This document shows, piece by piece, positions 19,046 through 42,257 of a stretch of 64,000 bases of DNA; the first letter of the stretch is position 1; every line of letters starts with the position of its first letter. The translations under genes and the position numbers were made by a program. This DNA comes from Aphrocallistes beatrix (taxonomy: Eukaryota; Porifera; Hexactinellida; Sceptrulophora; Aphrocallistidae): contig OY725496.1 of the NCBI GenBank assembly GCA_963281255.1, positions 496,001-560,000 on the forward strand, read 5' to 3'. Below the pieces are notes generated by a model. That model had not been told where the DNA came from and did no database searches. It was given only the letters and a program-made list of their open reading frames with translations.

Positions 19046-19046
19046 A

Positions 19047-22019: not shown

Positions 22020-23174
22020 ATGGATGATAATACTTCGATCAGTCATACTAGAGTTAGTATTGAGATTGTAGGTATTTTTTTGCCACTCGTTATGATAACA
22101 ATAATTTTGTACTTTTGTTGGAATATTTACTTCCTCAAAAAGGTTCGATTCTTTATAAAAGAACGCTCAAAAGCATTGGAAAGAGCTAAGTATGATATTT
22201 TAGGAAATTTCGCACAATTAGCTGAAAATCATAAGGTAGAGATAGTGAAATATTCTTTTCTCTTTGCTATCAACATCATCGAAGCTATTGCATTGACCGC
22301 AATTGTGGCAGCATATGCTACTACATATCTGGTTATCTATAGAAATAACTCATTGAATTTTCCCGATAGTGTTGAAACATCTAATTGTACCTCGGAATAT
22401 CTCAGTGTAAAGAATATGCTAACAGTTTCTTCTCTGATTCCACCACTTAACTTGTGTCGTGCATTCGCACAGGTTGGGCTGATATTTTTGATGGCTCTAT
22501 GCATATGTCTCCTCAAATTCTTGCAAAATAGCTATTATAACATTAGAGGAAATTATAGGTGGATTTTACGTTTTCTATCGTTCACTTCATTTCTCTGTAT
22601 CATAATGCTGATTCTCAGTAGTGTGCCTTCCTTAATGATTTTCGGATTCTTATTTGAACCTTTAATTCAGTTGGGTTATTTCTGTTTATTAATCAAATAT
22701 CTGCGCATATTCAAACAGACATTGAAGAGACAGACTATTGACTTGAAAATAATTAGCAAACCTAAAGCAGCTATCGAAAAATCAATTAGACTAGCGAAAC
22801 AATTCGCAGTCTTTTCATCATTGAACTGTATTGGCATTGGATGTGGAATTCTGATCAATTTCCTCACTCATTACACTTTCGTCATCTCCATACTTATTTA
22901 TTTCGCTCCATGTTTCTCAGAATACGCTTATGGCAAAGCACTCTATCAGTCTCTACTCGTATACCCGATTCAGATTAATCAACTTAAAAAGGCAGTAGAA
23001 ATCATCGATTTGATTACAAATTTCTTATTTGCTATTGCTTCTTTTTGTATAACTTCTCCTTTCTTTTTGATGTCATTTCTTATGTTTGGCTCAAAGTTAT
23101 GGAAAGACCTAAGGACGAGATTTGGAGTTCCTCCTCGCTTCACTCCAATACTGACTCAACCAATGTTAAAATAA
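22020..23174 (+). CDS. Multi-pass (about 7-TM) membrane protein, family A
   Basis: 384 aa, single exon, start MDDNTSISHTRVS. About seven hydrophobic spans: TM1 around 15-35 (GIFLPLVMITIILYFCW), then near 75-100, 140-165, 185-205, 208-230, 275-305 and 325-355. The cytosolic-looking block ERAKYDILGNFAQLAENHKV follows TM1, KRQTIDLKIISKPKAAIEKS precedes the sixth span, and the tail is KDLRTRFGVPPRFTPILTQP. N-glycosylation sequons lie near the N terminus and in the loop with ETSNCTSEY. It is a paralogue of the family B genes. The family is not one I recognise; a chemoreceptor-like or orphan 7-TM role is a guess from topology only. An AATAAA overlaps the stop codon and could serve as poly(A) signal. 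Confidence 0.75.
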   Translation: MDDNTSISHTRVSIEIVGIFLPLVMITIILYFCWNIYFLKKVRFFIKERSKALERAKYDILGNFAQLAENHKVEIVKYSFLFAINIIEAIALTAIVAAYATTYLVIYRNNSLNFPDSVETSNCTSEYLSVKNMLTVSSLIPPLNLCRAFAQVGLIFLMALCICLLKFLQNSYYNIRGNYRWILRFLSFTSFLCIIMLILSSVPSLMIFGFLFEPLIQLGYFCLLIKYLRIFKQTLKRQTIDLKIISKPKAAIEKSIRLAKQFAVFSSLNCIGIGCGILINFLTHYTFVISILIYFAPCFSEYAYGKALYQSLLVYPIQINQLKKAVEIIDLITNFLFAIASFCITSPFFLMSFLMFGSKLWKDLRTRFGVPPRFTPILTQPMLK

Positions 23175-24157
23175 AATTTTATTTTTAATATTTTTGTGTA
23201 ATTTAAATATAGATACAATAAAAGGTTCACAATAAGATATTTCCCAAAATGAAGGTGATAAGTAGAATTCGATAATGATGGAAAGTAAACAAAGGGGAAT
23301 TCTAATGGCTTAAATAGTTATCATATAAATTTCACCACAAATAAATCCGGGTTATGATATTCATGATAAAAGTTAAACATGATAGTTATCAATTTTAATA
23401 GGCAAAACAAGGGAATATTTAATGATCTCAGCCTTGTATTTATGTGCCAATCTGTCGAAATTACCAAATATCTCCTGCTTAAACTCTTCTATTGCATATG
23501 TTTTACTTTAATCTTTATTTTTAAAGAAAATCCCAAAGGATATTGAATAGTATTGATGTGTGCTTAAGTAATAGGACAAAGTACATTCTTACCACTAGTG
23601 TGATGTAGGTAAAATTCATCATGAACAATGTTAGCAAAGTGCAATATAATATTGATTACAACACTCTTAATGATTGGAATAATAGGAAAAATTAGGACAA
23701 AAGACTTGTATCATCCATTAGTTTATTACAAAGAAAGTATGTAGCGATCAGTCTTGCATTACAAAATGCATTCTGCATTGTTTTTCGAATTACTTAATGA
23801 TTTGATGGTTAACTTACTTTCATAGAGCTAAGTAGATGTGTATCAACTTACAAAAACAGTTTCAAATTACTTATTCTTAATTTGAAACTGTTTTACTTAT
23901 TACTTAGTACCCCTTACTTATTACTCCAAAACATCTCCCATAATAGAAGGGACAGCAAAAATCTTAATGAGACACAAATGAACTTTGAATAAATTATTTC
24001 ATAATGTAGAAGTAAATTACATATTTATTTGTAATTCACTAACAAACGACAATTCTTTTTCGAATTTTACTATATTTGGATTGATTGAGTATGTTTCAGT
24101 ATTCAGTCTATTCTCCTATAAATATCAGGTTTCACTTGTTTTAGATATTACCAATAA
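23175..24157. other. Intergenic DNA between membrane genes A and B
   Basis: Homologous to 11200-12139. It contains a local duplication, 'aattacttattctt' followed by its inverted relative 'aagaataagtaattt'-like sequence near 23865-23925. The short open frame at 23985-24173 leads into the B gene's start but is not preserved in copy 1. Confidence 0.6.
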
Positions 24158-25312
24158 ATGGATTTTTATCTAAATCACATTGATAATACGATTTTCAATG
24201 CTATAATCTGCCTGACCGTCCCTTTAATATTCATAGCAGGATTTTTCAATATTATTTGGAACATTTTTATCATCAAAAAAATAAAACTCAACGCTGAATT
24301 GAAGTCAAATGCAAATGAAAGGGCTAAGTATGATATGTTCGGTAATTTCGCTAGACTGGCACATAACTACAAGGTTGAGGTTGCTAAATACTCCTTTCTT
24401 TTGTCTGTCAACATAATTGAATCATTAACAGTGAGTGCTATTAGTATTGGGGCTATATCTTCCTATTTCTATATTCTAAAAAATCCCAGTCATTTTGACA
24501 AATTCGTTAACACATCTATTTGTTTCAAAGAATACTTGAGTCTCCCGAATACACAAATAATTTCATTCATTGTACCATACATAAACTTCTTTCTAGCATT
24601 AGGAGGAGTCTGTTTCTTATTCTTGATGACTCTTTGCATTTGTCTCATCAAATACTTACATGATGACTATTATGACATTAAAGGAAGTTTCAGATGGATA
24701 AAGCGCTTCCTCATTTTCACAATATTCCCTTCTTTCTTCTTGTTATTATTCAGTGCAATAAAACAATTGATGATATTTCAGAATGTCATTGAACCTGTAA
24801 TGCACATAATATATTTCTGTCTTCTGGTCAGGTATTCGCGAAAGTTTCATCATAATTTGAAGAGAAGGGCCATCGATTTAAAAATTATTTGCAAATCGAA
24901 AGCCAGAATTCAAGGATCCATAAAATTGGCCCATCAATTTGCCATCGTATCAACTTTAAATATTCTCTTCTATGGTTGTTTCATCATATCGAATTTTTTG
25001 TCAAAGTATATTTTTGTATTATCTATATTTTTATATTTTGCTCCTTGTTACTCCGATTATGTCTTTGGACGAGTCATCTATACACCTCCACTAACAACCC
25101 ATGAACAATTCAAACAGATCTATTTAGCTCTCAGTATCGTCAATTGGATAAGTAATTTCTTCGGTGTATGTTGTAGCATATGTATATGCACTCTCTATAT
25201 TTTGGTGTCATTTTTTATGTTCAGCAAAAATCTATGGAGAGATCTTAAAATGCGATTTGGATGTGGGAATCCTACTAGATTCACGCCTCAATTAATGCAA
25301 CAACTTATCTGA
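24158..25312 (+). CDS. Multi-pass (about 7-TM) membrane protein, family B, copy 2
   Basis: 384 aa, nearly identical to 12140-13291, with the same start (MDFYLNHIDNTIF), the same conserved loop ERAKYDMFGNFARLAHNYKV, the same KRRAIDLKIICKSKA block and the same WRDLKMRFG tail. Substitutions between the two copies are mostly conservative and no stop is present, which argues that both are under constraint or that the duplication is recent. It shares the overall plan and several blocks with gene A, so A and B arose by an older duplication. Function is unknown. The ATG is preceded by 'ttgttttagatattaccaataa', which contains a possible splice acceptor, so an upstream untranslated exon cannot be excluded. 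Confidence 0.75.
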   Translation: MDFYLNHIDNTIFNAIICLTVPLIFIAGFFNIIWNIFIIKKIKLNAELKSNANERAKYDMFGNFARLAHNYKVEVAKYSFLLSVNIIESLTVSAISIGAISSYFYILKNPSHFDKFVNTSICFKEYLSLPNTQIISFIVPYINFFLALGGVCFLFLMTLCICLIKYLHDDYYDIKGSFRWIKRFLIFTIFPSFFLLLFSAIKQLMIFQNVIEPVMHIIYFCLLVRYSRKFHHNLKRRAIDLKIICKSKARIQGSIKLAHQFAIVSTLNILFYGCFIISNFLSKYIFVLSIFLYFAPCYSDYVFGRVIYTPPLTTHEQFKQIYLALSIVNWISNFFGVCCSICICTLYILVSFFMFSKNLWRDLKMRFGCGNPTRFTPQLMQQLI

Positions 25313-25920
25313 TGAAAATGCATAATCTATCTTCATGCTTGTTGTTCATATTCATGATTACTATTATTTAATGCTCAAATAACTTCATATATTTTATTTT
25401 CTCAGTATTTGTGTTGCTCTTTTAAATTGTGAATTGTTCAACAATAAGTTCTGATACAAACTTTGTTAAGTGTAAAATTTTATACTCTAACAATTTTCAA
25501 TTGTTATGGTCTTTAGAGATTATAATTCGAATAATTCGAATAATGATTTTAAAAGATATTTCGAATCTGATCTGGAAATGTCTTTTGTGGAGAAAATATC
25601 GCATCCACCCATCTTGCCGAATACATAATTTGGAGATTTTGTATGTCATTTCGGCAAGTTGACCTAGCACCGAAGAAATGTTTCCTGATACGCATCGAAA
25701 ATCGCAAATCAGGGCCCACTGCTTTTCAAATTATCTTTCCAACGCTTTAATTTCTACGAAAAATTAGCTCACGCATTTTCCCGAACACACTAAATTTGTC
25801 GAAATATAGAATGTTAAGATCTGTACATTTAGAGAACCATTTGGATCAGATTCTGGATCAAAGATGTGAAAAAAGTGCCACTTTGTGTGATTTTGCAAAA
25901 TATACCTTATTTGAACTCGT
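25313..25920. other. Intergenic DNA with decayed MULE end
   Basis: Homologous to 13292-13880 of block 1. It includes the 'cggcaagttgacctagcacc' relic near 25650-25670. No gene seen. Confidence 0.55.
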
Positions 25921-25974
25921 GAATGAATAACATAATTCATTTCTTAAATGAATTTAATGGATTTATGAAATATA

Positions 25975-26702
25975 CTGGAGTTATAACTGGTGCTATAACT
26001 GGAGTTATAACTGGTGTTATAACTGGTGTTATAACTGGAGTTATAACTGGTGTTATAACTGGTGTTATAACTGGTGTTATAACTGGAGTTATAACTGGAG
26101 TTATAACTGGAGTTATAACTGGTGTTATAACTGGAGTTATAACTGGAGTTATAACTGGTGTTATAACTGGAGTATTAACTGGTGTTATAACTGGTGTTAT
26201 AACTGGAGTTATAACTGGAGTTACTATAACTGGAGTTATAACTGGTGTTATAACTGGAGTTATAACTGGAGTTATAACTGGTGTTATAACTGGAGTTATA
26301 ACTGGAGTTATAACTGGAGTTATAACTGGAGTTATAACTGGAGTTATAACTGGTGTTATAACTGGAGTATTAACTGGTGTTATAACTGGTGTTATAACTG
26401 GAGTTATAACTGGAGTTACTATAACTGGAGTTATAACTGGTGTTATAACTGGAGTTATAACTGGAGTTATAACTGGTGTTATAACTGGAGTTATAACTGG
26501 AGTTATAACTGGAGTTATAACTGGAGTTATAACTGGTGTTATAACTGGTATTATAACTGGAGTTATAACTGGAGGTATAACTGGTGTTATAACTGGAGTT
26601 ATAACTGGTGTTATAACTGGAGTTATAACTGGTGTTATAACTGGAGTTATAACTGGTGTTATAACTGGAGTTATAACTGGTGTTATAACTGGAGTTATAA
26701 CC
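25975..26702. repeat. 12-bp minisatellite (gttataactgga/t) with a 195-bp higher-order period
   Basis: About 60 units of 12 bp built on the palindrome GTTATAAC. Because 12 is a multiple of three, one frame stays open for 276 codons (25923-26753) and would encode (ITGV)n. I regard this as a by-product of the periodicity. Two marker variants ('agtattaact' and 'gttactataactgg') recur with a spacing of 195 bp (for example 26171 and 26366), so a 16-unit block has itself been duplicated. Confidence 0.95.
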
Positions 26703-26925
26703 AGTGCCCCTTCACTTTTTTCGCTTGGGGGGGCGCTCCTTACCTCATGCTGACTACCATTTTAATTTTAGCCTTAGAATGTATTACGTAGCATAACAAA
26801 TTCAAATCAATTGTTGCCATTTTAAACTAACCATATTCTTTTTCTCTTTCTTATTATCACCATTTCTATACCATCAGGGGATTAAAGTTTCACGAAAAAA
26901 CAGGAAGCGCCCCCCCACTTCTATT
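26703..26925. mobile_element. Possible small MITE with GCGCCCCCC arms
   Basis: 'cgcttgggggggcgctcc' near 26720-26740 is inverted as 'ggaagcgcccccccactt' near 26905-26922, around an AT-rich non-coding centre. Short arms and no visible target duplication, so low confidence. Confidence 0.35.
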
Positions 26926-26944
26926 TTTCGCAAAACACCGCTGG

Positions 26945-27045
26945 AAGTATATGCTTGATGTTTTTATTGTTAAAATATTCTTCACTGTCTGAGCTTGTCT
27001 CAGCTATACTTTACAAGGAATAAACACAGATATCGTAGTGCCAGG
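26945..27045 (+). pseudogene. Relic of the fluoride-channel 3' flank
   Basis: 'agtatatgcttgatg', 'aaaatattcttcactgt', 'cttgtctcagctatacttta' and 'gatatcgtagtgcc' follow the same order as the DNA just after the fluoride-channel stop at 63819-63890. Only flank, essentially no coding sequence. Confidence 0.6.
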
Positions 27046-27048
27046 TAG

Positions 27049-27167
27049 AAGAGTTGGAATCGTGTCCACTTTTCAGAAACCGACCCGAATCCGAATCTGA
27101 CCCTCGGATCTGAACCTGAGCCCAGTCCTGACCCGACACGAAAAGCCCGAAACCGATTCCAACTCTG
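27049..27167. mobile_element. Small hAT-like MITE (second copy)
   Basis: Same element as 15267-15390, 'gagttggaatcgtgtcc' to 'gaaaccgattccaactctg', in the same position relative to the fluoride-channel-flank relic. It was therefore carried along by duplication rather than inserted independently. Confidence 0.6.
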
Positions 27168-27321
27168 CCAGATGGGTCGAGGGGTATCTACCTTCCTGAT
27201 GAGTCCCTGGAAGGGAAATCTGTCCATTAAAATCTCGACTATGTAACTTTACGTATTCTTTGCATTTTCTATTTTGATTACATTATAGCTTATGCTTTGT
27301 GAGGAAAACATTCAAAGTTCT

Positions 27322-28640
27322 ACGTATGTTCAAATAGATATTCCCTATTTAGCATGAACTAGCGAGAGTGGATTGCATAGGTTTAGCTCAGATCAATGAG
27401 CATGAACTAGTTTCTCGGTGTCATAGTTACAAAGTCTTGCGTTTCTTCATAATTTTGTGCCCTTGGGTGAGCTATTGGAGCATTTGCGAACATTGTTTAT
27501 CCAGAATTTTTTGCCAGTCGAAGATCATTATGCGGGATATTTGCGGGTAAGATAATCCATTTGCAGACTGGGCTGCACTAAAATTTCGGGACATGGTTAC
27601 AAATTTCAGCCCTCTCGCAATCTCGCAATCGAGCGAAGTTTGCTTGTTTATAAAATATAATTGGATCTATCCAAGGTAAAAAGTAAATTGTTATCACGTT
27701 ATTTTAACAATTATTTGGTTTACAATTGATTACTATCAAGAACTAGCTTTTCGCATGATGGGCAGACGTGGAATGTATAATAATTGTGTAAGAAGCGCAC
27801 TAATACGTATTCCAATAGTGTTGTAGTACATTATTGAAATAAAACTAAATTGGAAATATCAATTCGATAGATTGAATCCATAGCAACTGAAGAATTGAAT
27901 AAAATATATTACTATATGAATATGAATGAACATTATTCAGCATATTCAACTTGATTTGATATATAACCATATCTAACGAGTAACATAAAAGTGTCAGTGA
28001 GTAAGGAACACTAAAAGTGAGTGTTATTTCAGTCCATTGCGATCTATGGCGAGTTCAATTGGAACGTGTGAAACGTACAAATTTTCTAAAGAAGAGATTA
28101 TTTTTTCTACCGTCTAAGAGTTTCAAATCGAAGAATGTTGTATTGCTGTCAGTGAATGGTTTGCGAGTCAACCGGAATATTGTATGGTAGCTGACCTTAA
28201 TAAACCAAGAATTTCGAAAGAAGATATGAAGAATGCAATATGTGAGAGAGAAACCGTTTTTATTCAAATGCATTTGAAGGACACCAAAGAATTTGTTGGC
28301 TGTACAGGAGTTTCTAAGCCAGAAATCTCAGCTAGTGGTCTAACAAGCCACTTTTTTCTCCAATCAGTAAAAACAGAATATAGAAAACGTGGACTAAGCA
28401 CTTTGCTCTACGATGAAGCCCTTAGAACTGCAAAGAAGATGGGAGCTAATAGAGTAACACTTACTATATTAGAAAGTCTGAAGTTTCAACATGAATTCAT
28501 TCTCAAACGAGGTTTCAATTTGGTGAAGGTAATAACGAAACATAAAAGTGAATTTAAAGGCCCCCCAGTATCATATGCCATTATAGATAGTATTACTCTA
28601 CATGAATTCGAAAAGTTCATCTGAATCTAGATAGAATCGT
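27322..28640. repeat. Right arm of the large inverted duplication
   Basis: Reverse complement of 19860-21535 less the SINE-like segment. It includes the segment with 'gatcaatgagcatgaactag' and 'catttgcagactgggctgcac', the GNAT upstream DNA, and the GNAT copy. The degenerate leader-exon relic at about 27239-27320 (ATG followed directly by TAA) lies just outside it. Confidence 0.8.
28046..28624 (+). pseudogene. GNAT acetyltransferase with one nonsense codon (copy 3)
   Basis: Same 5' end as the intact gene (MASSIGTCETYKFSKEEIIF), then TAA at 28115-28117 where the intact gene has CAA (V-Q-E-F). After the stop the frame is open to the end; an internal Met at 28184 gives 146 aa with YRKRGLSTLLYDEAL and FEKFI. 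The acetyl-CoA loop has Ser in place of the second Gly (R-x-x-G-x-S). The lesion differs from the frameshift in the mirror copy at 19864-20441, so the two copies were inactivated independently. It could in principle express the shorter form. Confidence 0.75.
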
Positions 28641-28959
28641 GTAATTAGTTATTACTATGTGTGTCAACCAACTATCAGTCATGTTGGGTTATTTTACTTT
28701 ATATGCTATCAATTCATGCATTTACTTTAACTAAAAAAATGTAAGAAATACTTTTTAAATTTTATTTTATATTAATGCTAGTATTTTATATATTCAAATG
28801 AACAATTTTGAATATTTTCAACTTATTTATTCATTAATATCTATTTTTGAAATTGAGCTATCATTCTACCTTTTTAACCCTAGATTATCGAAATGTCGTG
28901 ATATTGCGGATGTCTCCATCCATTTTCAATGGGAAAGAAGCCATAAAGTTGTACCACTG

Positions 28960-29105
28960 TGGTACATTTCGTTAGTCCCCTGCTGCGTCAATTATTTTGG
29001 TACAATTTATCGTTGCGCTTATTAAAGTATATGTTTGATTTATTTAATGTTAAAATATTCGTAACTGTATGAGCTAGTCTCAGCTACACTTTATAGGATG
29101 TAAAT
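28960..29105 (+). pseudogene. Relic of the fluoride-channel 3' end
   Basis: 'tcaattattttggtacaatt' followed by 'atcgttgcgcttatt' and 'agtatatgtttga' aligns with the last ~20 codons of the gene at 62722-63819, followed by the matching 3' flank (ctagtctcagctacacttta, atatcgtagcg). This is the best-preserved coding scrap of the three relics. Confidence 0.7.
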
Positions 29106-29128
29106 ACATATATCGTAGCGTCAGGTAG

Positions 29129-29247
29129 CGGAGTTGGAATCGGGCCCACTTTTCAGAAATCAACCCGAACCCGAATCTGACCCCCGGAACTGAACCCGGT
29201 CCGACCCTGACACCACTCGAAAAGTCCGAAACCGATTCTAACTCTGC
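29129..29247. mobile_element. Small hAT-like MITE (third copy)
   Basis: 'ggagttggaatcgggccc' to 'gaaaccgattctaactctg'. Same family and same relative position as 15267 and 27049. Confidence 0.6.
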
Positions 29248-29519
29248 CAGATGGGTCAAGGGGTGATTACCCTCCTGATGAGTCTCTGAGATGAGATGAA
29301 GCCACTCACATAACATACCTATGGGTTAGAGTCGAGCCATGGTCTTTACCCACTGGCAAGGATGCTCTAGTTCATAACATAAATGTCAGAATTCACTTTA
29401 TTCGATCCTTTCATTAAAACCATTTCTAAAGAAAGACCGTCAGATGCAAGACCTAGATATCCCATTTTTAAGCCAATTTTTATCCTAATTGCAGAGATAA
29501 CTTACAAAACCCAATACTT

Positions 29520-29970
29520 CAATGGCGTTATAATATACTGAAACTATGTTAGGTGCTCTCCTGTAGGCGAGAAACAATTAACCTAGAGATAGACTAGTGA
29601 ATAGCAAGGTTACTATGTTACGAGTTCAAGCTTTAATCAGTACTTTTTGCATAGTAAAACATATTTCAATCATGTTTAAGGTATAGTATTACTACCTGAA
29701 CAATTTAATATTATACAATCTTGTATCTATATGCATTAGCGTTCTATACAAAATAGAAATTCACACACTATATAGTATCATTGATAAAACTAGTTAGCAC
29801 AAATCTGTTTACGAAATCTCAACTATGAATACATTATTCATTGTATTTTCTATTTTGTTAACATTGAGGTTTATTATTTGTCAAGAAAGCATTCAAGGTA
29901 CTATGTTTAATTAAATAGTTTTTTATTGTTTAGCATGAACTTGCGTGCGTCGACTGCAAAGCTATGTTTA
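29520..29970. repeat. Duplicated upstream block with leader exon (copy 1)
   Basis: Nearly the same sequence as 39055-39505, from 'actgaaactatgttaggt' through 'gagttcaagcttt', the leader exon, and on to 'gcatgaacttgcgtgcgtcg'. It therefore represents the promoter and first exon of the modular secreted-protein locus, duplicated with it. Confidence 0.8.
29825..29897 (+). CDS. Signal-peptide exon of modular secreted protein (copy 1)
   Basis: MNTLFIVFSILLTLRFIICQ followed by ESIQ: Met, a hydrophobic core of about 18 residues, then a plausible cleavage site near C/Q-E. The exon ends CAA G and is followed directly by a donor (G|GTACTATG), leaving phase 1. The EGF-FN3 exon at 34604 starts with two bases (AA), giving G+AA = Glu, so the phases agree. 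The 4.7-kb intervening DNA contains the RAG-like transposon. Because the downstream exon is broken, this copy is probably no longer producing a full protein. That the two exons are spliced together is inference. Confidence 0.55.
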
Positions 29971-30026
29971 GATCAGTCTAGTAGAAATTGGTTGGTACAT
30001 ACAGTAAAACCTGTCCATAACGGTCA

Positions 30027-30551
30027 CACGTCCACTTAAAATCTTAAAAAATCACGAAAAAATTACGTTAAGCTTATCTCAGTATTTACAAACATTTTGG
30101 TATTTTTCAGCTCCAGCGGATCAAAGTAAGACCTTGAAAATTTTATTATTTCATTTTCACATATAAATGTGGTGTATATTGTGTTAAAATCCACTTCATC
30201 TGTTATAACTTCCATTCTCCATTAATAAAAGCTCTGAAAATTAGCTACAAATTCTAAATTACTAATACTTGGATCGAACACACCTAAAGTTATAATCTAG
30301 CCAACTAATTCTCGAATTATTACGTCATCATGACAGTACAAAATTTCATAGCAATGACTCAATTCATTACAGCTCAGGCAATATTCATCATAAATCAATG
30401 AAACTTAAACACTAGATCTATCTTACCCTTTTCTGCCAGATTGTCTCAAAATCTCGTCAAAATGCAAATTCATCATTGATTATGACGTCATAATTGTGTA
30501 TAAAAAGTGGAAATTTTACCAATTCAATTTTTACAATTTTTATCATTTTCG
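30027..30551 (+). repeat. Left terminal inverted repeat of the transposon
   Basis: About 525 bp, from CACGTCCACTTAAAATC to 'tttatcattttc'. It pairs with 33420-33928 almost throughout, with scattered mismatches and small indels. It carries a TGACGTCAT palindrome near 30483-30491. Confidence 0.9.
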
Positions 30552-30559
30552 AGTCAAAC

Positions 30560-30783
30560 TCATTAATTAATATACACATATTGATTTCTTATTGTAATTC
30601 TAATAAAAATGGAAATATTTTGAAATTTCGAAAAAGTAAAAGGTGACAATGACGTCACAACTCCATGATGAGTCGATATTTTCTTAGTCTGAAGTTAGAA
30701 CTTAGTGGAGCCATAGCCAAAAGACTCCCACATGCCAAAAATCAGCTTTCTGCGCTTGTCAGTTTCTTCAATCAATTCGTTAC

Positions 30784-30828
<45 letters not shown>

Positions 30829-30874
30829 CAAATAAATAAATAAATATATATTAATCGATTTTTAATAGTAAGGA
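30560..30874 (-). mobile_element. Helitron-like family B 5' fragment inside the transposon
   Basis: Reading the minus strand from 30874: TCCTTACTATTAAAAATCGA, the same TC-terminus as the full B copy at 44081, preceded by A. It is followed by the B-family words (gaagaaactgac, agcgcagaaagctgattttt, tgacgtcattgtc). A (GATA)n microsatellite of about 11 units (30785-30829) has expanded within it. It sits between the left inverted repeat and the transposase start. Confidence 0.55.
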
Positions 30875-30894
30875 TATCCTTCAGTTTATTCATT

Positions 30895-33048
30895 ATGATA
30901 ATAAATTCATCTATACCCCCTGCTTCCTCTGTGATACCTTTCGTATGTCCCCACTTTAATGAGTACTGCTACTGTTGTGGAGTCTCATGGTCCAAAGTGG
31001 TGCTGTACCCTATCACAAATTGTATGGCATTAAAGATGGATAAAGAATTCCAGGAATATGCAGGGCCAACTGGTTCGCACTCAGATCTCACTGGTCCCTC
31101 TTCCATATGCGGTAATTGCAAGATCACTCTCACCGTTAATACAAATGCTCAGCTGGACAGTTGGAAAAAGCAATTCGCCAAGAGAAGAATAGAACACTAC
31201 TGTATAGTGCGGAGGTGGCCAAAGCCAGATCACACAGAAGAAAAATGCTGGTATTGTGACAACCACAAGCTCAAGATGAGGAAGGGGAAGAAGAAAAACA
31301 GAAAGGGTGCAGGGAGACCCCCAGGATTTTCTTTCATCACTCCGTTTCGACCAGCGAAGACTCGTCAGGAGTTAACACAGGGCCTAATAGCTCAGGCTGA
31401 GGATGCTGGACAAATCGATCAATTGGTTCGAGCTGGGCTGAGTGCCATTCGTAAGTCGCGAGGTCTCCCCAAGGATGCACCCTTTGAACTATTAGGTCAT
31501 CATGGCAGGGCAACTACCTTCCAACGAGCAAACCCCAGCCAGAAGCGGACAAAGCTTGTAGTTCCTACTTCCTTCATTCGACAGCTCCAGCTTGTGACCA
31601 CGACCTCTAATTCCTCCATGGACTGTCTTATGACTATCATGAATCGGTTCATCGGTTCTGCAGTTCGTCTCCCAAAAAGACTAACAATTGTGTCGGAACG
31701 AGCTGAGTATATGACCCACTTTGCCATAAAGAACTTTGGAGAAGCTGATGATCTGTTACATGAAGCGACTGACACATTGGCAAAGTTTTGGATGGCTGAG
31801 ACTGGCGAAGTACACAGGCAGAGTCGAAATTCTACATATGGAATTGTTCGGGATATATGTGGGGAATTAGTCAGTCAAGAGTACAAGTCTGGAGACTGTC
31901 TGAAAATGTCAATTGATGGCGGCGGCGGATCTGTAAAAGTGATAATCAATCACCAAGGAGAAGCCATTAGTTTCAAAGGCAAAGGAGAGAGACAGATTCC
32001 ATTCGTCATCGCTATTTCAGAGGCTAGTGAGAGTCGAGCTCTACTATCATGCATGATGTATGACCTGTCCCCTATGTTTGACGATTATAATGTAACAGTG
32101 GCATGTGACTTCAAGTGCGCCCAATTGCTAACTGGCTGCACCACGACTGCTTGTGTGTTCTGCTGTACAACTGGCAAGAGGGTAAACAAGAGCCAAATCT
32201 ACTCTCCGGACAACAGAAACGTTCCAAGGACTGCAGATCAAGCAGCCTTATTACTCAAAACCAAGCCGGCCAGAGCAAGACACATTGATGGACAGATACA
32301 TCACCCTATTCTGGACCTCGGAAATGACCCTGTAGAGATATTCCATATACCTGTTTTACACATATCTATGTGCATATTGCGGCAATTGTTTCAACGCGAG
32401 ACTCGACTTGGCTCGACCTGCAAGGATGTATGGGAATCAAGAAAGCTCAAACTTCTGGTATTCCTGGAGACCAACTATCAAGTGAAAGCTTTGACCGCAA
32501 CCTGCACCAGCACACTCAAAGCCGAGCACATGAAGTGTCCCTCATTCGCTGGCAAGGACGTTACTAGGCTCGCCTCAGCAGTTTCAAGTGCTAGTGGTGC
32601 TGTATCTCTATGGATTGACTCTGGCTTCTCGGATTGCTCCGTTTTTGTCCTCAGAGCATGGCACTCACTTCGAACTGCTGCATGGGCTGGAGAAGAGATT
32701 GGGGAAGTTGCAAGACTCCTTTACGAATTCAGGATAGTGTGGCTTGATAATGGACTGACAGTAACGCTTCTTATCCATTGCTTGCTCGCTCACTTCATGG
32801 ATTGGTATTCTATACACCGAGGAAAGGTACAGCTCCTTACAGAGGAGCAAATTGAGTCATGTCACAATGACTTCTCTGCGGTACAGACCACTCATCATAG
32901 TACTGCAGTAGATGCACTAGGTCGATACAACTTCACCAGGAAGGATGGCCATAAGAGAAAGGCTGATGCACCAGCTAGACCCATTAGAGAGTCAGCCAAA
33001 CGGGCAATTCGTTTCTGGAAGGAGATCGATGGTACAGACGAAGACTAG
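30895..33048 (+). CDS. DDE-type transposase with RAG1/Transib-like layout
   Basis: 717 aa, one exon. N-terminal Cys/His clusters (C18, C25, C27, C28; C72 and C75; C103; C118, C121, H124) look zinc-binding. A basic KKKNRKGAGRPPG stretch (about 132-144) resembles an AT-hook-like GRP motif, as in the RAG1 nonamer-binding region. Candidate catalytic acids: D341 in MSIDGGGGSVKV, D405 in VACDFKCAQLLTG, E654 in EEQIESCHNDF. A C-x4-C-x2-C cluster (415-423) lies between the second D and the E, and H470 and H633 could complete a zinc site. The order Cys-rich, GRP, D, D, CxxC, E matches RAG1/Transib, and the element's CAC termini agree. It should cut and join the 30027/33928 ends. Start chosen as the first Met; M44 or M48 are alternatives. 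Assignment to RAG-like rather than another D-D-E superfamily is inference. No RAG2-like (Kelch) gene is nearby. Confidence 0.65.
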   Translation: MIINSSIPPASSVIPFVCPHFNEYCYCCGVSWSKVVLYPITNCMALKMDKEFQEYAGPTGSHSDLTGPSSICGNCKITLTVNTNAQLDSWKKQFAKRRIEHYCIVRRWPKPDHTEEKCWYCDNHKLKMRKGKKKNRKGAGRPPGFSFITPFRPAKTRQELTQGLIAQAEDAGQIDQLVRAGLSAIRKSRGLPKDAPFELLGHHGRATTFQRANPSQKRTKLVVPTSFIRQLQLVTTTSNSSMDCLMTIMNRFIGSAVRLPKRLTIVSERAEYMTHFAIKNFGEADDLLHEATDTLAKFWMAETGEVHRQSRNSTYGIVRDICGELVSQEYKSGDCLKMSIDGGGGSVKVIINHQGEAISFKGKGERQIPFVIAISEASESRALLSCMMYDLSPMFDDYNVTVACDFKCAQLLTGCTTTACVFCCTTGKRVNKSQIYSPDNRNVPRTADQAALLLKTKPARARHIDGQIHHPILDLGNDPVEIFHIPVLHISMCILRQLFQRETRLGSTCKDVWESRKLKLLVFLETNYQVKALTATCTSTLKAEHMKCPSFAGKDVTRLASAVSSASGAVSLWIDSGFSDCSVFVLRAWHSLRTAAWAGEEIGEVARLLYEFRIVWLDNGLTVTLLIHCLLAHFMDWYSIHRGKVQLLTEEQIESCHNDFSAVQTTHHSTAVDALGRYNFTRKDGHKRKADAPARPIRESAKRAIRFWKEIDGTDED

Positions 33049-33419
33049 CGAGATAAACAAATATTGGTGTAATCATAGCGGAAGGTTTCGGTTGAAATAG
33101 TGTAGTAGAATTCTATGTACTAATATTCTCATTATATTCATATTATCAATATAAACATTTTCTCAATAGATTGATATTTTCACTAAACAGATATTCTAAT
33201 AAATAATATTTCAGTCTGGTGAATGTCGTAGCACAAATCAATTCCAACTCAATTGAGGGCAATGTCGTTTGCTCATACAATCTCAAAGTATGTCATTATA
33301 GACAATGTCGGGTAGTGTATAGGAGCGCGCATCGTTTTCTAGATCGCTAAAGATCGGTATAGCGCATACCCAAAACAACTTTGCAGTAGCCGTGTACTTG
33401 CCATCGACACTTTTTGCCT
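33049..33419. other. Transposon 3' spacer between gene and right repeat
   Basis: Non-coding, AT-rich. It contains a possible AATAAA (about 33201) suitable for the transposase transcript. Nothing else recognised. Confidence 0.5.
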
Positions 33420-33928
33420 CGGAAAATGATAAAAATTGTAAAAATTGAATTGGTAAAATTTCCACTTTTTATACACAATTAAGACGTCATAATCTAATGA
33501 TGAATTTGCATTTTGACGAGATTTTGAGACAATCTGGCAGAAAAGGGTAAGATAGATCTAGTGTTTAAGTTTCATTGATTTATAATGAATATTGCCTGAG
33601 CTATAATGAAATTTTGTACTGTCATGATGACGCAATAATTCGAGAATTAGTTGGCTAGATTATAACTTTAGGCGTTTTCGATACAAGTATTATTAATTTA
33701 GAATTTGTAGCTAATTTTCAGAACTTTTATTAATGGAGAATGGAAGTTATAACAGATGAAGTGGATTTTAACACAATATACACCACATTTATATGTGAAA
33801 ATGAGATATTAAATTTTTCAAGGTCTTACTTTGATCCGGTGGAGCTGAAAAATACCAAAATGTTTGTAAATACTGAGATAATCTTAACGTAATTTTTTCG
33901 TGATTTTTTACGATTTAAAGTGGACGTG
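33420..33928 (-). repeat. Right terminal inverted repeat of the transposon
   Basis: About 510 bp, reverse complement of 30027-30551, ending ...aaagtggacgtg at 33928 immediately before the cggtca target duplication. Confidence 0.9.
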
Positions 33929-33959
33929 CGGTCACGGGAAGTGTCCAAAAATGAGCATT

Positions 33960-34275
33960 ATGTACAGGTGGCTTTTATAGAAAGCTTAGTGTTGTTTTTA
34001 CAAACAAAAGATTTCCTCCAATCCAATACATTAGAAAAATGTGCGTGCTCGGATAAGACGTGATTTCAGATCAGCAAAACTTCATTTACTACGTAAAAAT
34101 GTATCGATTGAAGTACGGACTTAAATCATATCTACAATGGACACTTGAAAAATCACAAGGATGTATTTTAGTTAATATCTATTTGGTTATTAAGTTAGAC
34201 TAGATGCCTAAACTCTGGGAGTTTTACTAAATAATTACGTAGCATTTGTAGTTTTGTATTATTCAGGTCGAAGTA
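33960..34275. other. Relic of the lectin-gene first intron and acceptor
   Basis: 'ggataagacgtgatttcag', 'aaatcatatctacaatggacacttgaaaaatcac' and 'atgcctaaactctgg...tttgtattattcag' follow the order of 40685-40912, the DNA just before the first C-type lectin exon in copy 2. The acceptor-like cag at 34275 is followed not by a lectin exon but by a MITE, so the lectin exons have been deleted here. Confidence 0.6.
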
Positions 34276-34560
34276 GGAATAAGGTCTAAAACAAGCATGA
34301 ATAAGATAAATTATGCTTAGTAAGAGTAAGACCGAAAATGCTTCACAGTACCCCCTCACAACCTTTGGACATTAGGACACTATTTCAAGCCTAAAATGCT
34401 CCTTTCACTAGGTTCTCATACATATTACTCTCCAAAATATTTACTTTCGCTCATCCTCCAATTTTAGATCCAATTTACTTTGTAGATTCTAGGGTTTTAC
34501 TGACATAAAATGGTTTTGGCTTTATTCCTACTTAAATTTTTGACTTTACTGGGATTTCCC
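34276..34560. mobile_element. MITE with GTAGGAATAAGG / CCTTATTCCTAC arms
   Basis: Starts gtcgaagtaggaataaggtc and ends with 'ggctttattcctactta' in inverse orientation. The interior has 'acactatttcaagcctaaaatgctcc'-type words. A homologous element is at 45955-46275 in copy 2. Non-coding. Confidence 0.55.
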
Positions 34561-35253
34561 GTTAAATTTTGATGAGTTCAACAAACACAATTCTCTCTTC
34601 TAGAAATTTGTTCTCCTGGCTATTCTTTCAACAATAAAAACTTTTCTTGCATTGACGTCAACGAATGCATAGTTGACAATGACTGTGATCACACATGTAC
34701 AAATACGATTGGAAGTTATTATTGCTCTTGTAGAGAACATTATTACCTATCCAACTATACTTCCTGTCGACTGAAACACTTAAGTATTCAGTTAATTGGT
34801 GCTGACAATTCAAGTCAAAGCATTCATTTCTCATGGGATACTGTATATCTTCCTGTTACAAGACTGAATGAATTAACATACAGCATATGGGCACGTGATG
34901 TTACCTTTGTGCTAGATGTTCCGTATACAGAGAATGGAACCACACGAAATTTGGAATTTTTGTTAAATGGTCTCCTACCTTACAGAACTTATGAAATATA
35001 TGTGGTTGGCATCGATAGCCAAACTGCTAACTCATCTAACACTATAACAATGACAACTTTAACTGATCGACCTGGATCACCCCCATTAGACATTCTAGCA
35101 TACTCTACTGATCCATTTACGATCAGATTAACTTGGTCGCCTCCTAACAGAGAGACACGAAATGGAGTTATAACGAGTTACACAATTCAATACGGAAGAA
35201 CTGATAGGAGAGTTGAAAGGTTTCATACTATTTCTGCTACACTAAATTCATTC

Positions 35254-36068
35254 CGTATCCGCCCACCTTGCCGAAAGACATTTTGCCGAAAGACATCTTG
35301 CCGAAAGGACATCTTGCTGAAAGGACATCTTGCCGAAAGTATGTGGTTTGATGATTACTTATTATTACAATGAGAATCCGGAAAGCATGTTATGAAGAAC
35401 TTATCGATTCACTATCTGATGAGCTAGTTGATGACTTAAGCGATTTTCTCCATTATTTTGAGAAGACATGGATAGGTTTAGAACATCATGGAAGAAAACG
35501 TCGCCCTTTATTTCCAATCGAACTATGGAACGTCAGAGATAGAGTGGAACGAGCTCTTCCACGGACGAATAATTCTGTAGAGGGTTGGCATAGGGCTTTC
35601 GATATTAGAATAAATACAACTCATCCTTCTGTCTCCAAACTAATTCGGAAAATTATTATGGAACAGAGTGATAGTGAAATTACCTTGGAAAAAGTTAGAA
35701 GCGGACATCAACTGCCCCAATCAAAAAAGAAGTACCTCTAATTAAACAAGCGTTTAGAGAAGATGGTTGATGAATATATATACATTCCACATCTAGAATA
35801 TCTGCGCGGCATATCACAAAACTTATCTTTCTAATATTTTTGTTTTTCTTGTTATTACTTCTTAACACTTAATAATACACTTATTGAAACTCTGAACCAG
35901 TTATGCGACACTCAGTTGTTAATTATGATTATTACAATTTGATATTCAATAGCTTTCGGCACAATGTCCTTCGGCGAGATGTCCTTTCGGCAAGATGTCC
36001 TTTCGGCACAATGTCTTTCGGCAAGATGTCTTTCGGCGAGATGTCTTTCGGCAAAGTGTCCTAGCACC
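35254..36068 (+). mobile_element. Deleted MULE-type transposon with 8-bp target duplication
   Basis: 815 bp flanked by attcattc on both sides (35246-35253 and 36069-36076). The uninterrupted site is visible in copy 2 at about 50012-50019 (aattcattcgacat). Both ends carry arrays of 'ttgccgaaagacat' words, in inverted orientation relative to each other (35270-35340 and 35955-36060). The interior keeps a transposase C-terminal part (35370-35741). An 8-bp duplication and subterminal repeat arrays fit Mutator-like elements. Confidence 0.8.
35370..35741 (+). CDS. C-terminal fragment of a MULE transposase
   Basis: 123 codons: YFEKTWIGLEHHGRKRRP, then FPIELWNVRDRVERALPRTN followed by NSVEGWHRAF. The W-N...R-T-N-N-x-x-E-x-W/H signature is the region downstream of the catalytic core in many animal MULE proteins. 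The D-D-E core and the N terminus are missing, so the fragment is inactive and the element non-autonomous. The Met at 35370 may simply be internal. It ends with a basic tail QSKKKYL. Confidence 0.65.
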   Translation: MRIRKACYEELIDSLSDELVDDLSDFLHYFEKTWIGLEHHGRKRRPLFPIELWNVRDRVERALPRTNNSVEGWHRAFDIRINTTHPSVSKLIRKIIMEQSDSEITLEKVRSGHQLPQSKKKYL

Positions 36069-36559
36069 ATTCATTCGACATCAACAATCTGGATGAGTAC
36101 ACTAGTTATACATTACGAATTGCTGCAGCTACCTCTGCAGGTGTAGGCGTGTACAGCTCTGAACTGGAAACTAGAACGCGAGAAGGCATTCCTTCAGCTA
36201 GTCCAGAAGTGCGCTTTCTATCCAAGACCCCAACCACTATCTCCATTCTATTACAACCTCCTGATATAGAAGATGTCAACGGTATTTTGACATATTACCT
36301 TGTCACCTACAATGGCAACATGATTGATACAGAGGAGAAGAGTAAAGTTTTTTCAACTCTCAATACAAGCCAAACACAACTCAATCCAATTAAAGGCGCA
36401 TTATTTGATTTGATGGAAGGAGTAGAATACAACATTAAAGCGAGAATTCATACTTCAGTGGGAGGAGGTCCCTACTCCTCCTTTATCTCCGTCACAACAA
36501 CCGAAATTATTCGTACGCTTTACTACTTCCATGCCCTTGCTTTACAAACCCTCAGTTAA

Positions 36560-38259
36560 GATGGAACAGATTCTAAAATAAGGTTACAACAATCCTATTG
36601 TATCTTATTGTGTTGTAATAACAACAATTGTGGTGCGAATTGTCGGCATCTCCGTAATTCTGAGGTTAAAATAGGGTTTCATTCTAAAAGAATGGCCAGA
36701 ATTCGGAATAGCGGGGTGACCGGAATTCAGAAATAAATTAATGTTAATGTCTATAGTAAGTTAAGCGGGACTTCAAAAAGTGACCAGCATATCGAGGTGG
36801 CCGTTAAGCGGGGTTCCACTGTAATACTTTATGTTAATAAAGTCATTAATCTAAGTATATTCAATGATATTGAGTAGAGTGAAGGAAGCGACCTGATTAT
36901 ATTTTGCTCCTATTTTCAAACGAATAAAGATAATTTGTGAAGAGTACATGATAATCTAAAAGAAGCACCCTGGTGAGAAAGACAAGGATTATTCATTCTA
37001 CCTATAAGCGAGGCCATTTCTACTGTTATGCATCATGATGTATCTAGTGTAGTTAAATCAATTCCGTTAAGTAACAACTGAATTTCATTTTGCACTTATG
37101 GTTCATATGAGGTTTTACCATGGTCATTTGTGTCGCGTACCACTAAATTGTGCCGTGTGCCACAATTTGTGATGGTGATTAGGTTATGTTGAAATAGATT
37201 TACGGAATTCTACGCTACAAAACCAACAATGGTTATGCAGTATAAGAATTTCACGAATGTAACAGTTTCGTATCCAAAACTTTTGGCTTCCCGCCCAAAT
37301 TAACTTAACTGGAAATGAGTTATCAAATTAAAAACTTTTAGCAAAACGATTGACTGAATTTAGAATAGATTTAAGCTCTAGAGTGAGACTATATTAAACT
37401 AGACTGAAATGAGAGAAAACAATTACAGACTAGGAATTCACATCACACCAATTCAACAATACACTATGTACCGTTTATTTTTATATCATTGAGATGTACT
37501 GTAGTAATTCTGTTCTCACTACTTTGGTAGTTATTCATTGAATAAATAATAACTACTAAATGATTAAGAAAAAATACAACACAGTGCACCTTCGCTAAAA
37601 GGAATAGCTACCAATGATCGAAAACATCACTCGGATTAGTGGATTCGTTCCGATTAGTGAAATAAAATTAATTCAATGAGGAATTTAAAATAACAATCGC
37701 GCTTCGCTTGCTTGGGCTGCCCGAATTGTGGACACTGTGTGTCCCCAGAGTATCGCTACAAATGCTTGGGGATATTCAGAAAAGATCGATTGCTAAAATA
37801 ATGCCATTTATCTACGGTTAATCTTGAATTCAGAACTGGAGATTAAAAGTAAATGATAAATGGAATTTGCTTAATACAAAGCTAACTAATCCAATAATGT
37901 AATGTCAATTAAAATCTACAAAATTCACAATCTAAAGATCATTATATTTGAATGACTCGAAAAACCTTAATCGAGTAACCTTAACAACAATTGAGGTATG
38001 GATTATGTACTATAATAAACTAATTTAACCATTAAATAACTTTTAATGATAAAAAAACAGACTCAAAATAGCTATATGTATAGTAACCCTAAGAATTGTT
38101 AAAAGATACTAGAGTAGTATTAATGAGCCTAACAACTAGAATAGATATATATAAATATAGTATGTTGCTATAGTATAGTTGGACCTCTAACAATTCTAAC
38201 TAACATTACTAAATAGGAACACTAAGACAGAGCGATATTTTCAGGCTTCATTGTGATAT
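36560..38259. other. Gene-poor stretch with several repeat relics
   Basis: 36720-36836 ends in 'ggtggccgttaagcggggttccactg', typical of a pogo/Tigger-like terminus. 37090-37190 is an inverted copy of a repeat also at 56130-56260 and 60100-60190 (caccaaattg, gcgacacaattt, catatggaccatgg). 37696-37770 is a decayed GC-rich Helitron-like terminus (caatcgcgcttcgcttgctt). 38095-38225 matches the GNAT upstream DNA at 14150-14300. No gene seen. Confidence 0.55.
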
Positions 38260-38835
38260 ATGGCGAGTTCAATTAGAACACGTGAAACGGACAAATTCTC
38301 CAAAGAAGATATTATATTTTCTACCGTCCAAGAGTTTCAAATCGAAGAATGTTGTATTGGTGTCAGTGAATGGTATGCGAGTCAACCGGAATATAGTGTG
38401 GTAGCTGACCAGAGTAAATCTTCAAGAATAACGAAGGAAGATATGAAGAGTGCTATAAGTACTGGAACAGTTTTTATTCAAATGCATTTGAAAGAAACCA
38501 AAGAATTTGTCGGCTGTATCGGCGTTTCTATGCCAGAAATCTCAGCTAGTGGTCTAACAAGCCACTTGTTTCTCCAATCAGTAAAAACAGAATATAGGAA
38601 ACGTGGACTAAGCACTTTGATCTACGATGAAGCCCTAACAACTGCCAAGGAGATGGGCACTAATAGAGTAACACTTAATGTAATTGAAAGTCTGAAGTTC
38701 CAACATGAATTCTTTCTCAAACGAGGTTTCAAATTGATGAAGATAATAACGAAACATAAAAGTGAATTTAAGGGCTCACTATCCATTAGTATTATAGATA
38801 GTGTTACTCTACATGAATTTGAAATGTTTATCTGA
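38260..38835 (+). CDS. GNAT-family N-acetyltransferase (only intact copy)
   Basis: 191 aa, MASSIRTRETDKFSKEDIIF start. The GNAT fold is suggested by the order: central strand with 'EFVGCIGVSMPEISASGL', then the acetyl-CoA motif V-K-T-E-Y-R-K-R-G-L-S-T-L-I-Y-D-E-A-L (R-x-x-G-x-S; the third position is usually Gly or Ala), then 'NRVTLNVIESLKFQHEFFLK' and RGFKLMKIITKH typical of the last helix and strands. It would transfer acetyl from acetyl-CoA to an amine; the substrate is unknown. No signal peptide, so cytosolic. Three other copies in the window (14325, 20441 minus, 28046) carry different disabling lesions. The upstream ~150 bp is shared with copy 14325, suggesting that the promoter was duplicated with it. 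Confidence 0.75.
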   Translation: MASSIRTRETDKFSKEDIIFSTVQEFQIEECCIGVSEWYASQPEYSVVADQSKSSRITKEDMKSAISTGTVFIQMHLKETKEFVGCIGVSMPEISASGLTSHLFLQSVKTEYRKRGLSTLIYDEALTTAKEMGTNRVTLNVIESLKFQHEFFLKRGFKLMKIITKHKSEFKGSLSISIIDSVTLHEFEMFI

Positions 38836-39054
38836 GTCTACATACTTGCAGAATCGTGTAATTAGTGTTTATTGTATATCCCACCTATCAGTCATGTTAG
38901 ATCATTTTCCTCTATATAAAATCTATTTAGATTTTACATTAACCAAAACAAACTGTGAGAAATAAATGTATTGAATCAAGTACGCTTAATACGAAGTATC
39001 TCCATTATGAACAGATTTTTTGGTCCCTTGGTTGTTCACAATAAGTGACCCTGA

Positions 39055-39505
39055 CTGTATACTGAAACTATGTTAGGTACTCTGCTGTAGGCGAAATATA
39101 CAATTAATCTAGAGAGAGATTAGTGAATAGCAAGGTTATTATGTTACGAGTTCAAGCTTTTATCAGTACTTTTGCATAAAACACATTTAAATCATGTTTA
39201 AAGTATAGTATTACTACAAGTTAATATTATACGTACAATCTTGTATCTATATGCATTAACGTTCAATACAAAATAGAAATTCACACACTATATAGTATCA
39301 TTGTTAAACTAGTTAGCACAAACTAATCTACGAAAATCTCAACTATGAATACATTATTCATTGTATTTTCTATTTTGTTAACATCGAGGTTTATTATTTG
39401 TCAAGAAAGCATTCAAGGTACTATGTTTAAATATATTTTATTGTTTTAGCATATACTTGCGTGAGTCGACTGCAAAGCAATGTTTAGATCAGTCAATGAG
39501 TACGA
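39055..39505. repeat. Duplicated upstream block with leader exon (copy 2)
   Basis: Collinear with 29530-29970. It includes the signal-peptide exon and the following 'gcatatacttgcgtgagtcg' segment. It marks the 5' limit of the second modular locus. Confidence 0.8.
39345..39417 (+). CDS. Signal-peptide exon of modular lectin-Ig-EGF-FN3 protein (copy 2)
   Basis: MNTLFIVFSILLTSRFIICQ + ESIQ, then donor G|GTACTATG. Ends in phase 1 (CAA G). The nearest compatible acceptor is at 40912 (ttcttcag|GT TGC TAT), giving G+GT = Gly and the junction ...SIQ-G-CYEDK. It is the most likely first coding exon of the gene whose other exons are 40913-41314, 42258-42554, 43082-43468, 43650-44036 and 49367-51645. 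Joining is inferred from phase and order. Confidence 0.6.
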
Positions 39506-39759
39506 ACTGGTATCTCAATTCGAGCATTGCATCGGATGTAGACTCGGGATGAGGATTCGTAGGACCCTTAGGTTAGGACTCAGGATTGGTAGGGATAATT
39601 ATTTTGGGTAATTAGAATTATGGTTAATGGAATATTTAACAATCTTCAATAAATTATTCGTAGGCCATGGCCTACAGTAGCCTACGCCAATATAATAGTA
39701 CATGATCCCTGAAAATTTAGGAATGAATCAAGTGAGAAAAGAATGGGATTAGTTAGTAC

Positions 39760-39935
39760 GTACATTGAACCCTGTCCATAACGACCACCCAAAGAATTGA
39801 CCAAAATCGTTAAGTATAGGTGGCCGTTATATAAGTTATTGTAGTGAGAAAGTCAACGACGGGACTGATTTTAGCGGGCGTTATGTATAGAGTAACCACA
39901 ATACAGAGTGGCCGTTACAGCAGATTTTATTGCAC
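39760..39935. mobile_element. pogo/Tigger-like relic
   Basis: 'ccctgtccataacgaccacc' ... 'taggtggccgttatataag' ... 'gagtggccgttacagcagatt' are the terminal-repeat words of a pogo-type element. The same family is the insertion site of the RAG-like transposon at 30 kb. No transposase sequence. Confidence 0.5.
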
Positions 39936-40207
39936 ATTTACTAATGAAACATTTTCTTCCAATCTTATACAAGTACATTATAATCATGTGCTGCCAAGTG
40001 AGTTCAGAAAAATTCCTGGAGATTGACCATAAAATTTACGGAGAAACAAATTTTTTTTACGGAGCATTCTAAAATCCCTTAATGACCCAACAGGTCTTAA
40101 TTTACTTTTACAAATAACATAAACTAACAACTTTGTATGAATAAACTAACAACTTTGTATGAATAATAAAGATAGATATATGGACGCTTTCGCAAACTAT
40201 CAAAGCA

Positions 40208-40440
40208 CTATTTAATATGGTCGTACATACTTTGTGAAAATAACTCGTACATTTTCGAATCAGGTACAAATGATGAGGAATTATGAATATTGGTTTTCAC
40301 CGTTAACAAAGAACTCAAGACCTCAGTTGATAGGCTGTTTCTTTGTTGTGTTTTGATTAATTTCATCTGCGAAAATATTCGCTCACAGTCTGCATTGCTG
40401 TGTGGCATAGAAGATTGGATGTCAAATTTGTCAACTGATT
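40208..40440 (-). pseudogene. hAT transposase C-terminal (dimerisation) fragment
   Basis: The frame reads DKFDIQSSMPHSNADCERIF then SQMKLIKTQQRNSLSTEVLS and SLLTVKTN. This is the hAT dimerisation motif (P-x-S-N/S-A-x-x-E-R-x-F-S ... R-N-x-L). The upstream frame is closed by a stop at about 40440 and the rest of the transposase is absent, so it is a fragment. It is the only hAT protein trace in a window that contains several hAT-like MITEs. Confidence 0.75.
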
Positions 40441-40912
40441 ATATCTCGCGATCTAACATAATTTGAAGAGTATTAGTAATGTGATATAATCAGAATGATA
40501 ACATGGTTCACTAATAATAACAAAACGCAGTTAGATTTATAAACAAGAAGTATTAAATGTATTACGCAAGAAATACGTATAAATCGGGTCTTCATGCGTA
40601 GACACGTAGATTGCAGTCAAATTTACGTAGTCTACGTAAATTTACGGAGACTTGGCAGCACTGATTATAATCATGTGCTGCTAGGATAAGACGTGGTTTT
40701 AGGTAAACAAATTTGATTCTCAACTTAAAATGTTTTGAGTGAAATTCTGTTGTCTACACACTCCTTGAAATTATATCTACAGATTGACGCTTGAAAACAT
40801 TTATAGAGACGTATTTTACTATATATTTGAGTTATTTACTAGTCAGCCGAAATGCCTAAACTAATTTTGTTGAATAATTTCGTAATACTTAGTACTTTTG
40901 TATATTCTTCAG

Positions 40913-42151: not shown

Positions 42152-42257
42152 TTGTTATTAACCATCTAATGACATATACACTAAATACAGAACCGACGAC
42201 CAGAAAAGGATAAACCAAGTCACAAGAACAATTGTTACTTTTTTACTATTCTTTTAG

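Follow-up and report, generated by a model that had tools for sequence, protein, structure and literature searches.

The window analysed here, 64,000 nucleotides of Aphrocallistes beatrix contig OY725496.1 (assembly GCA_963281255.1, positions 496,001 to 560,000), contains a 3,902-bp transposon at positions 30027-33928, for which an initial annotation proposed a RAG1/Transib-like transposase and a target-site duplication (TSD) of 6 bp rather than 5 bp. The length of the target stagger is usually taken to be characteristic of a transposase superfamily. The locus raises the question of whether the element belongs to the RAG1/Transib lineage or is a more distant relative of it. We consider it highly probable that the element is a young autonomous cut-and-paste transposon of the CMC/CMCT clan (EnSpm/CACTA, Mirage, Chapaev, Transib/RAG1), and that Chapaev-like elements are the nearest of the relatives found. 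To judge from its sequence, it would be a cousin of RAG1 and Transib and not a member of their lineage, and the RAG1 label should be softened. The new point is a 6-bp stagger in two families of the same genome.

The ends of the element are CACGTCC...GGACGTG; the left end starts with CACGTCCACTT and the right end is its complement. Arms of the terminal inverted repeat (TIR), as delimited by BLASTN, are 532 bp and 516 bp long and about 93% identical with gaps. A CGGTCA, read directly from the sequence, lies on either flank, and between the arms is a single intact open reading frame (ORF) of 717 codons. The unit, its ends, its half-kilobase TIRs, the flanking repeats and the gene are thus all present as the initial annotation had described them. 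Its claim that no RAG2-like partner accompanies the transposase holds as well, since the transposase is the only sense ORF of at least 80 amino acids (aa) within 29500-34500; the other ORF of this size in that interval is a 91-aa antisense frame.

A search of 100.5 Mb in 28 contigs, in which the best candidates only were scored, identified six full-length copies of this element (the window copy and five more, hereafter family A) and at least three further rearranged or older copies. The six full-length copies differ from each other by 3-21 substitutions per ~3.9 kb (~99.5-99.9% identity). The five others share their start and stop bases with the window copy, except that the last bases of the right end are lost in one of them (C20), and CAC..GTG is found at both ends in five of the six. 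Where both ends are intact, a perfect 6-bp TSD is exhibited by four copies out of five (CGGTCA, CATTCG, CAGTCG and CGCATG). Three of the six copies have the 717-codon ORF open, namely the window copy, C20 (with an identical protein) and C14. In the C11 copy the frame is 734 codons long and its C terminus is altered, the match stopping at residue 702, and the longest frame in the C2 and C1 copies is 476 codons. Family A is young and, to all appearances, still mobile. No short derivatives of family A turned up, the end pattern giving 13 exact and 4 one-mismatch matches vs 5 matches of a reversed control pattern.

The window copy is inserted in a dispersed repeat older than itself (ACAGTAAAACCTGTCCATAACGGTCAC...GTACAGGTG; 29990-30026 and 33929-33970), six relatives of which match over the joined site at 76-80% identity. 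Of four relatives aligned, one (C7:1935968) represents the empty site, with a single CGGTCA followed by a 4-base difference; the other three gave no alignment across the junction under stricter scoring. A chance repeat was rejected in view of the six copies in the genome. Also rejected was the idea that the 6-bp repeat consists of 4 bp plus element bases: in the window, the CGGTCA ahead of CAC ends in A and not in G.

Related families are found in the same genome. Family B (C12, C13 and C3) has about 30% protein identity to family A, CAC..GTG ends, TIRs of ~300 bp (in the copy measured) and an ORF that, in the one copy read, is interrupted close to its C terminus. Its TSD is 6 bp in all three end pairs (CGGTCA, TGATCG and CGGTCG, by eye from printed flanks). 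The family B copy at C12 lies in sequence similar to the repeat that hosts the window copy, at the same CGGTCA target. Family C, more abundant (37 end matches at no more than 2 mismatches) and with ~20% identity to family A, has ends of the CAC..GTG type, CAC(A/G)GGTGTAATATTTGG. Among 12 end pairs of family C, nine have a 4-bp TSD, one of the nine being within a C run where it could be 3-5 bp. We read families A and B as one lineage with a 6-bp stagger, next to family C with 4 bp. Family D was read at one locus, with a 602-residue open stretch. The database relatives of family C (n=15) are eight Perkinsus proteins at 36-52% identity and seven from ENA. For the family C transposase at L040:812-3070, the relatives at 36-52% identity are in Perkinsus marinus, P. 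chesapeaki and P. olseni, possibly through horizontal transfer.

The 6-bp sites exhibit a pattern of their own. In the seven sites pooled (four of family A and three of family B, the 5-bp site of C11 being left out), Y1/R6 occurs in 14 of 14 half-sites and R2/Y5 likewise in 14 of 14. C1/G6 occurs in 11 of the 14 (p 1e-6 vs the window base composition, 35% GC), and 27 of the 42 bases are G or C (p 1e-4), these p-values assuming independence, with the two half-sites of each site counted separately. Given this half-site symmetry and GC content, the A/B target is roughly palindromic and GC-rich (YRNNYR/CGRYCG). Sites of family C have no GC bias (11/36 over nine scored sites).

The family A transposase exhibits the motif set D341-D405-C420xxC423-LH489-H628x4H633-E654, with D341, D405, C420, C423 and E654 at the positions initially assigned to them. 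Residues invariant across families A, B and C include D341, D405, K407, G414, C420, C423, L488, H489, H628 and H633 and, in the N-terminal region, C25, C28, C72, C75, C103, C118 and C121. A GRP motif is also found in family C, with GQP instead in family B. E654 is paired with the glutamate of family C SEQSGExxH by both MAFFT and hhalign; the family B protein P0003 stops short of this position. Profile comparison by hhalign pairs A with B at 99.7% (E 1e-25), and C with A alone at 95.7% (E 9e-9) and with A+B at 96.8% (E 2.9e-10), in the last case with both aspartates, CxxC, LH, HxxxxH and E654 in register. Family D matches C at 99.7% (E 7e-26) and A+B at 78% (E 2e-5). Protein searches with A and with an A/B/C profile returned two proteins only, both of family A, and searches of viral contigs and genome contigs gave no relative. 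In the protein database P0002 is 99% identical to the transposase and P0005 (381 aa) 74% identical, both from ENA. P0002 is without seven residues (DVTRLAS, residues 555-561 of the window ORF), possibly through a false annotated mini-intron or as a copy variant.

The features given for the CMCT clade are CA..TG ends, a TSD of 2 to 5 bp and, in the stretch from the second D to E, C(2)C and H(3-4)H (PMC12730594). In the element C420/C423 and H628/H633 lie between D405 and E654, and its CAC..GTG termini are of the 5'-CA..TG-3' form. Chapaev elements are described with invariable CAC/GTG ends, a TSD of generally 3-4 bp and the motifs C(2)C, LH and H(4)H (PMC4079192); these termini and all three motifs are present here. 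Chapaev has been placed within a broad-sense Transib superfamily, its Chapa zinc finger being common to the RAG1 N terminus (PMC4411706). With Chapaev the element further shares the D-D-E catalytic acids, a Cys-rich N-terminal region and a lone transposase gene, but it differs by a 6-bp TSD, a symmetric CGRYCG-like target and an identity of only ~20% to family C, with its 4-bp TSD. EnSpm/CACTA, ESTA, CNEST and other CMCT groups, as the clan is reported, resemble it in C(2)C plus H(3-4)H and CA..TG ends; their TSDs, compared by description, differ, being 3 bp in fungal EnSpm and CNIRT6 and TA in ESTA and CNEST (PMC12730594, PMC12810828). No 6-bp TSD of Chapaev type came out of a search of the literature in the text accessible to it, with Repbase Reports outside its scope, so that known cases are possible. 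Since the motifs and ends agree with those of CMCT and Chapaev and the TSD agrees with that of none of these groups, we call the element Chapaev-like and file it neither as Chapaev nor as Transib.

How near does the element come to RAG1? Among PDB sequences the transposase matched no RAG1, RAG1L or HzTransib chain at E <= 10, while a RAG1 core query reaches RAG1L at 1.5e-72 and HzTransib at 0.005. Profile comparison with the RAG1 core was not significant (hhalign P 0.03), the score of the A+B+C profile being reached by 1 of 40 shuffles, a borderline result. Three of five profiles place D405/C420/C423 on D708/C727/C730. The best alignments of A+B+C and A+B+C+D put D405, C420, C423 and H489 on D708, C727, C730 and H795, and the profile of C alone holds the D and CxxC in register (RAG1 residue numbers were checked against the PDB letters). 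Spacings in family A and mouse RAG1 are, respectively, 15 and 19 for D2-C, 69 and 68 for C-H, 139 and 142 for H-H, 5 and 5 for HxxxxH, and 21 and 20 for H-E, with a D1-D2 gap of 64 in family A vs 108 in mouse RAG1. Against the RAG1 N-terminus the family C profile scores E 8.6e-4 (reached by 0 of 150 shuffles). None of 40 shuffles reaches the score of the A+B+C profile and none of 100 that of A+B, the latter with a narrow margin and over 13 columns only. The N-terminal zinc region appears RAG1-like clearly in family C and weakly in A+B, to which extent the RAG1-like Cys-rich N terminus of the initial annotation stands.

TSDs of RAGL and Transib elements are described as "almost always" or "invariably" 5 bp (PMC7204232), and a RAGL element of a unicellular alga also has 5 bp (PMC9435367). 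Here 5 bp is found in one of the five family A copies and in none of the three family B pairs. The likenesses are the CAC ends, a Cys-rich N terminus, the GRP motif and what appears, by motif and near-RAG1 spacing, to be the same D-D-E arrangement with ZnC2 (CxxC) and ZnH2 (HxxxxH). The differences, besides the TSD, the D1-D2 gap and the lack of a significant core match, are that there is no RAG2L, that no RING finger is detected via Pfam, and that the ends past CAC are unlike the protostome RAGL consensus as given in PMC7204232. Direct membership in RAG1/Transib was rejected on TSD length, the lack of a sequence match and the lack of RAG2L. Of the proposed RAG1/Transib-like transposase, the shared motif set and CAC ends are retained; the core similarity, the TSD and the nearest relatives found point elsewhere.

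A genuine member of the RAG1/Transib lineage (RAGL), with RAG2L lost and the stagger shifted to 6 bp, would agree with the CAC ends, the D2-to-E layout close to RAG1, the GC-rich symmetric target and the RAG1-like N-terminal zinc region. We regard it as improbable, given the PDB search that failed where the RAG1 core query succeeds, the D1-D2 gap, the TSD and the end sequences just described, and the far stronger matches with families B, C and D. Assignment to another superfamily with 6-bp TSDs, such as IS3EU, is hardly credible: fungal IS3EU elements do have 6-bp TSDs and the long TIRs would suit, but their ends are TAYGG..CCRTA (PMC12730594), vs CAC..GTG here, no Pfam match is obtained, and C(2)C-LH-H(4)H fits CMCT. 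IS3EU identity was rejected on the ends. A new superfamily of the CMCT clan, neither Chapaev nor Transib, would operate by the same mechanism and overlaps the Chapaev-like reading, so that the likelihoods of the two are not exclusive. The 6-bp TSD in two families, the ~20% identity to family C and the protein searches that returned family A only speak for it; the presence of all three Chapaev motifs and the clear homology of A and A+B to the 4-bp family C speak against it, and we find it rather unlikely.

Several observations weigh against the Chapaev-like reading that we prefer. The TSDs of A (6 bp in four of five) and B (three of three) exceed both the 2-5 bp of CMCT, a descriptive range, and the 3-4 bp of Chapaev; the C11 copy, from its flanks, has a 5-bp TSD (CAAGC), and 3 of the 12 family C end pairs have no TSD. 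The basis of the Chapaev-like label is the motif set together with family C, a family in turn named from its features, with Chapaev compared by description. Searches of Pfam, NCBIfam and PDB sequences gave no relevant match; B alone matches C weakly (hhalign 17%, E 0.0015), and a partial copy (L038) has N in place of the second catalytic D (D405). As to the link with RAG1, the score of the A+B+C+D profile against the core is reached by 15 of 100 shuffles, the A+B and D profiles do not recover the D405=D708 register, and family D alone has no match to the RAG1 N-terminus. A bolder proposal is that A+B constitute an undescribed major lineage of the RAG1/Transib/Chapaev clan, with RAG1-like spacing and N-terminal zinc region, the clan's first 6-bp stagger and a palindromic CGRYCG target, recently or currently mobile in an early animal; this we hold as a possibility, leaning somewhat against it.

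The footprint shows precise CAC ends, 6-bp staggered insertion, a target preference and recent spread. By analogy with the clan, a Chapaev-like element of this kind would move by means of one protein. Its N-terminal zinc region and GRP stretch may bind the TIRs and pair both ends. An RNase-H-type D341-D405-E654 site, braced by zinc at C420/C423-H628/H633, would then cut exactly at the 5'-CAC observed at the ends. The ends would be joined to a target of the roughly palindromic YRNNYR/CGRYCG pattern, the two cuts lying 6 bp from each other as the footprint has them, and strand transfer followed by host gap repair would leave the 6-bp TSD. RAG and Transib form hairpins on the flanks.

Homologous transposases with 4-bp (C) and 6-bp (A, B) duplications thus occur in one genome, which makes the determinant of stagger length in the clan of RAG1 testable by comparing related proteins. 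Being young, with its ORF open in several copies, the element is a candidate for a relative of the RAG machinery that is active, works with a single protein and comes from outside Bilateria, provided that the host is such an animal. Should A+B be an undescribed lineage, one protein architecture would offer a natural series of staggers, at 4, 5 and 6 bp. The features of the window copy are collected in Table 1.

Table 1. Positions in the window of the features of the family A element, with the basis of each assignment.
Feature	Position	Strand	Basis
Left TSD, CGGTCA	30021..30026	.	direct reading
Left TIR, starts CACGTCCACTT	30027..30558	+	BLASTN; end shared by other copies
Transposase gene, 717 codons, single open frame	30895..33048	+	same protein in C20; 717 codons in C14
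N-terminal zinc region, residues 25-121 (C25xxC28 / C72xxC75 / C103 / C118xxC121), RAG1-N/Chapa-like	30967..31257	+	Cys conserved in families A, B, C
GAGRPPG, residues 138-144, preceded by a basic stretch; putative DNA contact	31306..31326	+	motif; function inferred
Catalytic D341 codon	31915..31917	+	invariant in alignments A1, A2, A3
Catalytic D405 codon, motif CDFK	32107..32109	+	invariant in alignment A2, nearly so in A3
C420xxC423, C(2)C zinc half-site	32152..32163	+	motif, alignments
LH motif, L488-H489	32356..32361	+	motif, alignments
H(4)H zinc half-site, H628-x4-H633	32776..32793	+	motif, alignment
Catalytic E654 codon, EEQIESCH	32854..32856	+	aligned with family C SEQSGExxH (MAFFT, hhalign)
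Right TIR, finishing GGACGTG	33413..33928	-	BLASTN
Right TSD, CGGTCA	33929..33934	.	direct reading

Between the left TIR and the ORF, the transposon carries a dispersed short repeat of ~255 bp (30621-30877) that includes a GATA repeat and has, as a lower bound, dozens of genome-wide matches at ~79-91% identity. ACGTCAT / TGACGTCA sites, which we take to resemble CREB/ATF sites, recur inside the left TIR (30316-30331 and 30479-30494).

Seven of eight nearby frames scanned have a Pfam match: NHL repeats (two), GNAT, C-type lectin, EGF/fibronectin-III, Ras-like and CrcB. This gene content suits an animal host and fits an early-branching animal; similar NHL proteins occur in demosponges. NHL, multi-transmembrane, GNAT acetyltransferase, EGF-FN3 and Ras-like proteins each occur two to three times in the window, with some of the copies scanned against Pfam. 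Local gene duplications were identified by eye at 731-5000, 12140-25312, 19864-38835, 34576-51645 and 57044-62091. A minisatellite of ~12-bp units at 25923-26791 is open in three frames, with readings such as (GVIT)n, (VITP)n and (SYNW)n-like.

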